Assembly: GCA_028280945.1 (NCBI GenBank)
Contig: JANQKV010000042.1
Location: 1 to 64,000 of the forward strand
Length of the DNA stretch: 64,000 nt
From: Opitutaceae bacterium
GTDB lineage: Bacteria > Verrucomicrobiota > Verrucomicrobiia > Opitutales > Opitutaceae
Reading direction: 5' to 3'
Within the stretch, counting starts at the first letter, position 1, and every line of letters starts with the position of its first letter. A program made the translations under genes and the position numbers. Below are positions 17,500 to 21,559 of the stretch, in pieces. The notes below the pieces were generated by a model, which saw only the letters and a list, made by a program, of their open reading frames with translations, had not been told where the DNA came from and did no database searches.

Positions 17500-20304
17500 A
17501 TGAAACCTCTCCTCTCTCTTCTACTGGTCCTCGTTGTCGGTTCTTCGACGGCATGGGCCCAAAACCTCGGTTCGATCACCGGCCGAGTGATTGACGGAAA
17601 TACGGAACTCGCTCTCGGTGGAGTGCGGGTCAGTGTCAGTGGCACGGCTTTGGAGGCTTACACCTCCGCCAACGGTCGTTACACCATCCCGGCGGTGCCC
17701 GAAGGTGCTCAGGTCGTCGTTTTCAGCTACGTCGGCTACGGCAACATGTCACAGTCGGTCACGGTTTCCGGAGCGACCCGCCTCGATGCCTCGTTTGGCA
17801 GCGATGTCGTGGAAATGGATGCCTTGGTCATCGAGGGTGCCATGGTGGGAACCGCCCGGGCCATCAATCAGCAGCGCGCCGCGAACACCCTGACCAACAT
17901 CGTCGCCTCCGATGAAATTGGTTCGTTCGCCGACCAAAACGCGGCCGAAGCGCTGCAACGCATCCCCGGCGTCTCCCTCTACCGCGACCAGGGCGAGGGT
18001 CGCTACATTGTGCTGCGCGGCCTTAACTTCAATTACACCTCGGTGCAGGTGAACGGTGGCAGCTTCGCCGGGGCCGACCTCGGTGACCGCGCCACCGCGC
18101 TCGACGTCGTGCCCACGGACGCCCTCGCTTCCATCGAAGTGATCAAGGTCCCTACTCCCGACATGGATGCCGAAGGTCTGGGGGGTAAGGTCAACATCAA
18201 GACCAAGAGTCCCTTCGATAGTGAAGGCATGGACGCCAACTTTCGCGCCCAAGGTCAATACAGTGCCCTCTCCGGGGAATGGACGCCGAAGATCAACGGC
18301 ATGTTCTCCACCCGCTTCGGTGATGACAACCAGTTTGGTTTCCTCATTGCCCCGACCTGGCAGGTGCGGGAGTTCGGCTCCCACAACATTGAAACCGGCG
18401 GCGACTGGGGCTTGGAAGAATCCCCGCAGGACAACAACGAATACTACTTCATTGAGGAGATTCAGCCCCGCGACTACGTCATCGAACGTGAGCGCTACGG
18501 GGTGAACCTGGCGCTCGAGGCCAAGCCGACCGACCAGCAGTATTTTTACCTGCATGCCGGCTACAATCGCTTCACCGACACGGAGGACCGCCACCGCAAT
18601 CCGATCGCTTTCTCCGACGGCGAAATCGAATTCCTCGACGGCAACAGCGCCACCATCACCACAGAGGAAGACGACGGAGAGTTCGAAACGATCTTCGCGC
18701 AAGAGCTGCGGATTCGTGAAAAGGACCAGGAAGTCATCTCGCTCGTTGCCGGTTTTGAACAACGCATGGACCTCTGGGAATTCACCGGCCAGATCGGTTA
18801 CACGGAAGGTGAGGAGACCCGCCCGGACGAGCTGCAGGCGGCCTACGAGCCCTCCGACGAGATCTCCAAGACCTTTAGCTATGTCTTCAACGGTCCCTAC
18901 GACGTGCAAATCGCCCAGACCGCCGGTCCCAGCATCCTCGATGCCGCCAGCTACGAGTTTGATGAGCTCGAGTGGGTTGATGAAATTGGCACCGAAGAGT
19001 CCTTCGATCTGAGCTTCGATGTCCGCCGCGACCTCGACACCGAGAATCCGGCCTACATCAAGTTCGGCGGTCTCTACCGCGCCAAGGAGAAGACCTCCGA
19101 GGCCGAGGTCTTCGAACTCGGAGATGGTCCGGATTACATCCAGAATCTGGCCGATGCCACCCTCGGGCCCAATCCCGATTTCCCATTCATCGCCACGCCG
19201 CGCGTCGATCCGGACGTCATCCGCCGCGCCTTCTATGAGGATCGCGATACCTTCGACATCGAACGTAACTTTGAGGACAGTGAATTCGACGACTGGACGG
19301 TGAGCGAGGATGTCACCGCGCTCTACTTCATGGCCTCGGGCACCTTCGACCGTCTGAACGTCATTGGTGGTGTCCGCTGGGAGAGCACGGACTTCAGCAC
19401 GACGGGCCGGGAAATCATCTTCGATGAAGACGGCGACCCGGCCGGTGCCCAGGATATCACGGAAAGCCGTACCTACGATGACGTGCTCCCCGGTGTCTAC
19501 TTCCGCTACGACATGTCCGATCAGTTGGTCTTCCGCGCTTCCTATTCCAACTCGCTCGCGCGGCCCAACTTTGGCGACATCGCCTTCCGCCGCCTGATCA
19601 ACGACGAGGATGGCGAGATTACCATTGGCAACCCCTTCCTCGAGACCCTTGAAGGCACCAATTGGGACGCTTCGGTGGAATATTACCTGCCGTCCCTCGG
19701 CATGTTGTCCGCCTCCGTCTTCTACAAGGAGATCAAGAACTTCTCCTACGAGTTTGAGACTGATGCCGATCCGCGCTATCCGGACTACGACGTGACCACG
19801 TTCGCCAACGGCAGCGAAGGTGACATCATGGGCCTCGAGCTCTCCTACCAGCAGCAGTTCAACATGCTGCCCGGTCCCCTCGCCGGCATCGGCGTGATGG
19901 CCAATGGCACGTTCCTCGACGCCGATGCCACCTACCCGACGCGTCCAGACGAAGAGGTGCCGTTTATCGGCCAGTCCGACCTCACCGCCAACTTCGCGCT
20001 CACCTACGACCGCGGCCCGTTCTTCGCCCGCCTCGCGTTCAACTACCGTGATGCTCGCCTGCGGGAAGACGAAGCGCTCGGCGGCGAGTTTGCCGAGGAC
20101 TTCTACATCGACGACTTCCAGCAACTCGACCTCGTCGTGCGTTACGAGATGACCGAGAACTGGGAGCTGTTCGCGGAATGGATCAACATCACCAACGAGC
20201 CCTTCCGGGTGTTCCTGCCGAGTGACAACGGCCAGGACGACCGCCTGGGTCAGATCGAGATCTACGACACCAGCGCCAATGTGGGCGTGCGCTGGAAGTT
20301 GTGA
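17500..20304 (+). CDS. TonB-dependent receptor, probably for phytate or its products
   Basis: 934 residues: signal peptide (LLSLLLVLVVGSSTAWAQ), a CarboxypepD-reg-like beta sandwich (residues 24-105, SITGRVIDGNTELALGGVR), the plug domain (about 125-240, including QRIPGVSLYRDQGEG and RYIVLRGLN) and a 22-strand barrel ending in a C-terminal aromatic-basic strand (NVGVRWKL). It is an outer-membrane gated importer driven by TonB. A hairpin terminator follows at 20364, but the phytase gene lies immediately downstream on the same strand. TonB receptors beside beta-propeller phytases are a known arrangement in aquatic and plant-associated bacteria, so inositol phosphates are the best guess for the substrate (inference). 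Confidence 0.9.
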   Translation: MKPLLSLLLVLVVGSSTAWAQNLGSITGRVIDGNTELALGGVRVSVSGTALEAYTSANGRYTIPAVPEGAQVVVFSYVGYGNMSQSVTVSGATRLDASFGSDVVEMDALVIEGAMVGTARAINQQRAANTLTNIVASDEIGSFADQNAAEALQRIPGVSLYRDQGEGRYIVLRGLNFNYTSVQVNGGSFAGADLGDRATALDVVPTDALASIEVIKVPTPDMDAEGLGGKVNIKTKSPFDSEGMDANFRAQGQYSALSGEWTPKINGMFSTRFGDDNQFGFLIAPTWQVREFGSHNIETGGDWGLEESPQDNNEYYFIEEIQPRDYVIERERYGVNLALEAKPTDQQYFYLHAGYNRFTDTEDRHRNPIAFSDGEIEFLDGNSATITTEEDDGEFETIFAQELRIREKDQEVISLVAGFEQRMDLWEFTGQIGYTEGEETRPDELQAAYEPSDEISKTFSYVFNGPYDVQIAQTAGPSILDAASYEFDELEWVDEIGTEESFDLSFDVRRDLDTENPAYIKFGGLYRAKEKTSEAEVFELGDGPDYIQNLADATLGPNPDFPFIATPRVDPDVIRRAFYEDRDTFDIERNFEDSEFDDWTVSEDVTALYFMASGTFDRLNVIGGVRWESTDFSTTGREIIFDEDGDPAGAQDITESRTYDDVLPGVYFRYDMSDQLVFRASYSNSLARPNFGDIAFRRLINDEDGEITIGNPFLETLEGTNWDASVEYYLPSLGMLSASVFYKEIKNFSYEFETDADPRYPDYDVTTFANGSEGDIMGLELSYQQQFNMLPGPLAGIGVMANGTFLDADATYPTRPDEEVPFIGQSDLTANFALTYDRGPFFARLAFNYRDARLREDEALGGEFAEDFYIDDFQQLDLVVRYEMTENWELFAEWINITNEPFRVFLPSDNGQDDRLGQIEIYDTSANVGVRWKL

Positions 20305-20363
20305 TTACGGGCAATCCCTTATGGTTCGCGTGGTTTAGTCTGTAACGTTGCTCGAATCCAACG

Positions 20364-20402
20364 TGCGCGGGCTATGGGGGCCCGCGCATGTTTCATTTTT
20401 TC
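20364..20402 (+). terminator. Intrinsic terminator after the TonB receptor gene
   Basis: A perfect 9-bp stem (TGCGCGGGC / GCCCGCGCA, loop of 7) is followed by TGTTTCATTTTTT. It sits between the receptor stop and the phytase start, and argues against a phytase start upstream of it at 20348. Confidence 0.85.
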
Positions 20403-20437: not shown

Positions 20438-21559
20438 ATGAGTATGTTTTCCCGTTTTGTTGTCGGGCATAAAGCCCGACCCACGAATTTGATGTCTCGG
20501 TCCTTGTGGGTCGGGCTTTATGCCCGACAACTTCCCGTGCTTGGCATCGGTATCCTGGTGTCTTCGCTTGCCGTCGCCGAACCTGTTGCTCCGCGCGTCG
20601 TGACAACCGTGTCGCGCTACGATACCGATGACCCTGCGATTTGGGTCAATCGAACCAATCCGGCCGAGAGCCTGGTACTGGGCACCGACAAGGACGCCGA
20701 CGGTGCCCTGATGGTCTTTGGGCTCGACGGAGTGGAGCGCAAGGATCTCTCCGTGCGCGGCCTGCTGCGTCCCAACAACGTCGATCTCGCCTACGACATC
20801 GAGCTGGGTGGCCAAAAGGTCGACGTGGCCGTGGTCACGGAGCGGTTTGCCCATCGCCTGCGCATCTACACCTTGCCCGACATGCGCCCGGTCGATGGCG
20901 GCGGCATCCCGGTTTTTGCGGGAGAGCGGGCCCGTGATGTCATGGGCATCGCGTTGTATCGACGCCCGGCCGACGGGGCGTTGTTTGCCATCGTGAGCCG
21001 GTCGGATTTTGGCGCGCCGAAGCAGGGCTACCTGCACCAGTATCGGCTGGTCGACGATGGCACCAGCCAACTCCACGGAATCTTCGTGCGCGCCTTTGGC
21101 GACTGGAGTGGCAAGAAGGAGATCGAGGCCCTGGCGGTTGATACTGAACTCGGCTATGTCTACGCCAGCGACGAAACCCATGGCGTGCGCAAGTATCTCG
21201 CCGATCCCGCGGCCGAAGATGCCGAGGATGAGCTGGCGGTGTTTGGACTTACCGGGTTTGCCCGCGATCACGAAGGCATCTCGGTTTATCCGACGGGCCC
21301 CGGCACGGGTTACATCCTGGTCTCAGACCAACAAGCCAACATGTTCCGCATCTTCACCCGTGAAGGCACTGCGACCGACCCGCATGACCACAAGTTCCTG
21401 GCCGCGGTTCACCTGTCCACGATGGACAGCGATGGCAGTGATGTGACCGCCGTCGCGATCCCGGGTTTTCCGGGTGGTCTTTTTGTCGGCATGTCCACCG
21501 ACCGGACCTTCCACTACTACGCCTGGGACGACATCGCCAAAGCGGCGGGACTGGAGTGA
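20438..21559 (+). CDS. Beta-propeller phytase (3-phytase)
   Basis: The mature region has beta-propeller phytase motifs: RYDTDDPAIWVN, GTDKDADGALMVFGLDG, RPNNVDLAYD, the VTERFAHRLRIY blade, VDTELGYVYASDETHGVRKY, and the EGISVYPTGPGTGYILVSDQ region, with many acidic calcium ligands. The enzyme removes phosphate from phytate outside the cytoplasm. Starting at ATG 20438 gives 373 residues with an unusually long N-terminus before the signal core VLGIGILVSSLAVA; ATG 20492 would give a more normal signal peptide. The extra codons are exactly those made by a perfect 26-bp inverted repeat lying inside the frame. A start at 20348 would lie upstream of a terminator and is rejected. Confidence 0.88.
   Translation: MSMFSRFVVGHKARPTNLMSRSLWVGLYARQLPVLGIGILVSSLAVAEPVAPRVVTTVSRYDTDDPAIWVNRTNPAESLVLGTDKDADGALMVFGLDGVERKDLSVRGLLRPNNVDLAYDIELGGQKVDVAVVTERFAHRLRIYTLPDMRPVDGGGIPVFAGERARDVMGIALYRRPADGALFAIVSRSDFGAPKQGYLHQYRLVDDGTSQLHGIFVRAFGDWSGKKEIEALAVDTELGYVYASDETHGVRKYLADPAAEDAEDELAVFGLTGFARDHEGISVYPTGPGTGYILVSDQQANMFRIFTREGTATDPHDHKFLAAVHLSTMDSDGSDVTAVAIPGFPGGLFVGMSTDRTFHYYAWDDIAKAAGLE
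20459..20531. repeat. Perfect 26-bp inverted repeat inside the phytase N-terminal coding region
   Basis: The left arm 20459-20484 begins GTTGTCGGGCATAAAGCCC and the right arm 20506-20531 is its exact reverse complement; the spacer is 21 bases. Each arm is itself a small hairpin (GTCGGGC-ATAAA-GCCCGAC). This looks like a REP/MITE-type palindromic element. It keeps the reading frame open and encodes the segment between the first Met and the signal-peptide core. No second copy was seen in this window. Confidence 0.85.

Follow-up and report, generated by a model that had tools for sequence, protein, structure and literature searches.

How does a perfect palindrome come to lie inside the signal-peptide region of a phytase gene, and what does it do to the start of that gene? 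The question is raised by a window of 64,000 nt, the whole stretch of Opitutaceae DNA analysed here, in which the phytase, its surroundings and the palindrome are laid out as follows.

17500..20304, + strand: TonB-dependent receptor gene, upstream of the phytase (Pfam PF00593, PF07715)
20360..20392, + strand: terminator-like hairpin, then TCATTTTTTC, separating the receptor gene from the phytase
20438..21559, + strand: phytase gene including its stop codon, 373 aa counted from ATG 20438 (Pfam PF02333)
20459..20484, − strand: left REP, GTGG tag toward the loop (CCAC on the + strand), −13.6 kcal/mol when folded alone
20485..20505, no strand: spacer (loop) between the two REPs, 21 nt
20492..20494, + strand: loop ATG, in frame; unlikely, though possible, as an alternative start
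20506..20531, + strand: right REP, 5'-GTGGGTCGGGCTTTATGCCCGAC-3' plus AAC, −14.8 kcal/mol when folded alone
20459..20530, + strand: putative REPIN insertion, 72 bp, read as VVGHKARPTNLMSRSLWVGLYARQ, missing from same-genus orthologues, 24 codons without a stop
20531..20578, + strand: hydrophobic core of the signal peptide, LPVLGIGILVSSLAVA (hydropathy, maximum 2.35 over 12 residues)

The phytase reading frame matches PF02333 with 127.7-128.1 bits against a cut-off of 21, and alignment of the upstream regions places its ATG at 20438 opposite the start of the phytase in a same-genus orthologue (G003). This ATG has no Shine-Dalgarno-like sequence. At the end of LPVLGIGILVSSLAVA, AVA before E is, by rule of thumb only, a possible cleavage site. 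The terminator-like hairpin was the single one found in a scan where 0.5 would be expected by chance; the end of the receptor gene and similar hairpins likewise precede the phytase in same-genus relatives, and in two of them (G003 and G004) the hairpins, as judged by eye, stand at the equivalent place.

According to the earlier note, a 26-bp inverted repeat without mismatches, whose arms each form a hairpin of their own, lies between the first ATG and the signal-peptide core, and this description proved correct. The arms (20459-20484 and 20506-20531) are 26 nt long, 21 nt apart and 100% complementary, and the palindrome lies in frame, 3' of ATG 20438 and 5' of the core. Each arm alone forms a hairpin with a 7-bp stem, which none of 200 shuffles matched in folding, and the two together form one long hairpin (−68 kcal/mol for the 131-nt region, z −8.1). 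The 19-mer core has four matches in the window, both strands counted, a number reached in 0 of 100 shuffles, which excludes a chance palindrome.

A search for further copies of the arm, as had been suggested with the original reading, found the REP unit, 5'-GTGGGTCGGGCTTTAYGCCCGAC-3', dispersed in the host genome at 34 sites (clustered matches), its pattern giving 51 matches per strand versus 2 for the reversed control. The hairpin is GC-rich and carries GTRG at its 5' foot (GTGG-GTCGGGC-TTTAY-GCCCGAC), as in the GTAG (GTRG) superfamily. The REP is held by 20 of 141 relatives and, within the genus, by seven of eight genomes, six of them with at least 34 matches. We compiled 122 sites from five genomes of the genus, namely the listed host sites except a poor match at C33:102038, together with part of those in G001, G002, G004 and G005; inverted pairs account for 82 with GTGG pointing inward and for 3 with it pointing outward, and the rest are 2 triplets and 35 singles. 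The dominant inward pairing is the arrangement of REPINs. Some REPINs (loci L132, L134, L136 and L158) have longer similar flanks of about 20 nt per side, for example AAACCCAAGTCCCATTCGTT and AGTCTCTGCTTCTGTAAAAA, a hint of a larger compound repeat.

That such elements are usually intergenic, as had been remarked, holds in this genus as well: a simple codon-bias test, with a mark of 0.25 for the flanks, placed 4 of 118 testable sites (the 122 minus 4 at edges) clearly inside genes, a count that is a lower bound because the test is rough and scores weakly beside signal peptides. These four do not include the phytase site, and the test had been added because a GC3 filter for coding flanks missed the phytase. 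The second site in purL and the site in dnaE2 (see below), each with one flank below the 0.25 mark, were counted by frame and homology.

The host genome has six Y1-transposase matches, and one of these, on contig C59, is a RAYT of 185 aa flanked by REPINs. It scores 88 bits against NCBIfam NF047646 (cut-off 80) and aligns to E. coli TnpA-REP (PDB 4er8; E 1.8e-4) with the HxH motif kept and a tyrosine opposite Y115, which we take to be the catalytic residue. The E. coli protein is likewise an HUH tyrosine transposase with REP palindromes, which are linked to BIMEs, though at this E-value it is distant in sequence from the host RAYT. At the five other Y1-transposase genes of the host, an inverted-repeat search found no such REP pair, only one imperfect 17-nt pair. 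Among 20 RAYT loci fetched from relatives, the host's own included, the 8 best-scoring adjoin our REP family and the other 12 do not. At the same time, three genomes of the genus (G002, G003 and G004) have many REPs and no RAYT match at E 1e-15, which argues against a strict link between the two, and internal stops interrupt several of the near RAYTs; REPs may outlive their transposase. From these sequence comparisons we infer that the REPIN would be mobilised by the RAYT.

An element of either REP or MITE type had been proposed, and the first half of that proposal stands, given the 34 sites and the RAYT with copies of these REPINs on either side. Inverted repeats around a short centre would also be seen in a MITE derived from a DDE transposon, or in a palindrome formed by chance, but no direct repeat abuts both ends of the element, a frame-compatible target duplication is absent, and the RAYT association, the GTRG tag and the many copies all speak against a MITE; together with the shuffles, this leaves such an origin hardly credible. 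A 7-bp direct repeat, TTCCCGT, does occur at 20449-20455 and 20532-20538, with a gap of 3 nt to the element on its left side. We considered and dismissed it as a target duplication: its copies are 83 bp apart and an insertion of 83 bp would shift the frame, so the repeat is read as chance.

If the palindrome is a REPIN, relatives should tell whether it was gained by the phytase. The REP residues occur in none of the 51 other phytase loci examined (52 of 110 fetched loci were compared, our own included; at least four do not reach the start, and L023 equals L052 in sequence). In the nearest orthologue (G003), M-TRY-LPALFLL stands against MSMFSRF-VVGHKARPTNLMSRSLWVGLYARQ-LPVLGIG of the host, with start codons at matching places. 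Orthologous phytases with the same residues and no inverted repeat, by which the earlier note would have judged the repeat coincidental, did not appear; the orthologues lack the residues, which backs a gain of 24 codons (72 bp, 20459-20530) in place of the roughly 25 first estimated. The frame did survive, as had been claimed: of the three forward frames of the segment 20459-20530, only that of the phytase is free of stops. With the insert, 31 residues instead of 7 precede the core; neither the core nor the AVA-E site is altered. The ends of the insertion are themselves approximate and could be a codon off, since no near-identical empty site was found among the loci compared, the closest orthologue being 84-85% identical in protein, and signal peptides diverge fast.

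We therefore consider it very probable that a REPIN of a RAYT-served family inserted, in frame and nearly neutrally, into the 5' end of the phytase gene, with secretion probably tolerated. Directly observed are the repeat family, the RAYT, the reading frame and the absence from relatives; the course of events would have been as follows. A REPIN, two inverted REPs with their GTGG ends facing, of a family served by a RAYT transposase, would have entered a short ancestral signal peptide, M-S-M-F-S-R-F / L-P-V-L-G, between its codons TTT (F7) and CTT (today L32), adding 72 bp as 24 codons and lengthening only the n-region. The gene would have survived because the length of the insert is a multiple of three and its frame is free of stops, and, as residues were added only to the positively charged n-region with the core intact, secretion was probably tolerated and the insertion near neutral.

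The earlier note had further suggested that the palindrome places a strong mRNA hairpin over the initiation region, lowering or regulating phytase synthesis. The first of these ideas was not borne out and the second gains little, as the hairpin starts only at +22, counted from the A of ATG 20438, which is beyond the footprint that initiation usually occupies, and the predicted mean openness of the region from −18 to +15 is essentially unchanged (0.73 with the element versus 0.70 with the flanks joined; 0.64 with the element if the transcript start is set 14 nt further down). In four natural orthologues the same value ranges from 0.47 to 0.77. Predicted folding thus gives no backing for a block of initiation. 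Regulation could still act through slower early elongation, altered mRNA stability or less coupling to the receptor gene; the stability of the long hairpin and the view put forward in PMC3733652 that REP hairpins function as RNA elements would favour it. We regard such regulation as rather unlikely, given where the hairpin begins, the unchanged start and the fact that the element is not conserved in orthologues.

The loop does hold an in-frame ATG at 20492, as had been noted, and from this codon the REPIN would donate the start, giving MSRSLWVGLYARQ-LPVLGIGILVSSLAVA with an n-region wholly encoded by the REP. The n-region is plausible, and 54 of 162 REPIN readings have an ATG ahead of the WVGLYAR frame. 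Moreover, in a YCF48-like gene of two genomes of the genus (G001 and G002; loci L300 and L301) the nearest start is an ATG inside a REP, directly before the signal peptide, a position at which relatives free of the REP start with GTG or TTG. But the loop ATG is poorly placed: its upstream zone (−14..−5) is predicted to be 11% unpaired and its −18..+15 region 32%, compared with 74% and 73% for ATG 20438, which sits where the relatives start. It also has no Shine-Dalgarno-like sequence, which is not decisive because the normal start has none either. We judge a start at 20492 to be improbable. Placing the REPIN in the 5' untranslated region, with translation from GTG 20537, is a still different reading, in line with the warning in the main text of PMC3733652 that many N-terminal REPs may be extragenic for such a reason; its product, (M)LGIGILVSSLAVA, would be without any positively charged n-region and ATG 20438 aligns with the start in G003, making it very improbable. 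With the openness of the start unchanged and the loop ATG poorly placed, the predictions favour the tolerated, near-neutral insertion.

Other secreted proteins of the genus may have received REPs in a similar way. Besides the YCF48-like gene, a DUF885 gene (G001) and a gene for a secreted protein (G005) have REPINs placed as in the phytase, although all these N-terminal cases are judged from reading frames only. We had considered the loop ATG as a mark of N-terminal REPINs and dropped it, since a third of REPIN readings (the 54 of 162 above) have one anyway. It is conceivable, though we hold it only tentatively, that this REP family is a recurrent donor of N-termini to secreted proteins, supplying start codons (from the loop ATG or the ATG in TTTATGCCC) and a positively charged n-region (WVGLYARQ), with permissive loops such as those of PurL refilled time after time by unrelated REP families in various genera; the phytase, the YCF48-like gene, the DUF885 gene and the secreted protein of G005 would perhaps be the candidates.

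The same REP is found in frame within further genes. The host purL (L145:2616-6782, on contig C36) has it twice, as a single REP at about residue 460 of the reading frame and as a REPIN at about 979, and the protein with both inserts still scores 2095 bits as PurL. Both inserts fall where Salmonella PurL (1t3t) is shorter, in an alignment running to just past the second insert. In G001, dnaE2 has a REPIN in frame, in the linker before the C-terminal OB domain, and fdhD has a single REP in frame (L201/L207 loci). Across 30 Opitutaceae PurL genes, variation is greatest in the same few loops. One of them, in G002, has a single REP of the host's family in the loop of the host's second insert, and those of G010, G012 and G023 have REPs of other families that are dispersed in their own genomes (176, 228 and 29 matches, respectively, to the sequence beginning GTGGCACGGGC, and 62 in G010 to that beginning GTAGCCGGGGTC). 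A scan for GTRG hairpins gave a match in 21 of the 30 genes, with 0.45 matches expected per gene under codon shuffling; because many matches are by chance, only families dispersed in their own genome were counted as secure, which holds for the PurL inserts of the host, G002, G010, G012 and G023, those of G030, G043 and G045 being likely only. At loci L163, L170, L183 and L184, in-frame REPs of unrelated families occupy variable loops of PurL from several Opitutaceae genera. Other loop inserts (L163, L183, L187 and L190; G002, G023, G037 and G030) resemble translated short direct repeats, such as CCAAGTTCCAAGTTCC-like and CAGAGAGCACAGAG-like DNA.

These features agree with GTAG-superfamily REPINs and their RAYTs as described in the available text of PMC3116915 and PMC3733652: a 7-bp stem tagged with GTRG, copies that number in the tens and pair in inverted orientation, a RAYT with REPs of the same kind on its flanks and, in Opitutus terrae, intragenic copies. 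Unlike in those descriptions, the gene hit here encodes a phytase and the element sits in the n-region of its signal peptide. According to the main text of PMC3733652, REPs inside genes were reported in 2013, with O. terrae, of the same family as our host, the richest GTAG case and DnaE2 among the intragenic targets; a GTGG variant is given there for O. terrae GTAG-20, which we liken to the REP here by its tag and not by full sequence. The words phytase, purL and signal peptide are absent from that main text. Our literature search, which covered listings and the papers named here, found no report of this REPIN in a phytase, and the search combining Opitutaceae and REP was empty. Rickettsia palindromic elements, the classical analogue, are described in the available text of PMC10969869 as palindromes that likewise sit in frame within coding genes and are translated; by that description they are about 150 bp, compared with 72 bp here. 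RPE-4 and RPE-6 are assigned to the CGTC superfamily, and PMC3733652 reports no transposase association for that superfamily.

As intragenic REPs are already known in Opitutaceae, the phytase is a clear and tidy example, not a new system, and it leaves the picture of REP biology unchanged. Gene finders should take it as a warning that start codons called close to REPs may be incorrect. The case presents a small mobile palindrome turning into protein sequence at a site that forgives such additions, the signal-peptide n-region, and, together with the PurL loops, it offers natural experiments on which sites of a protein can accommodate 20-25 foreign residues.
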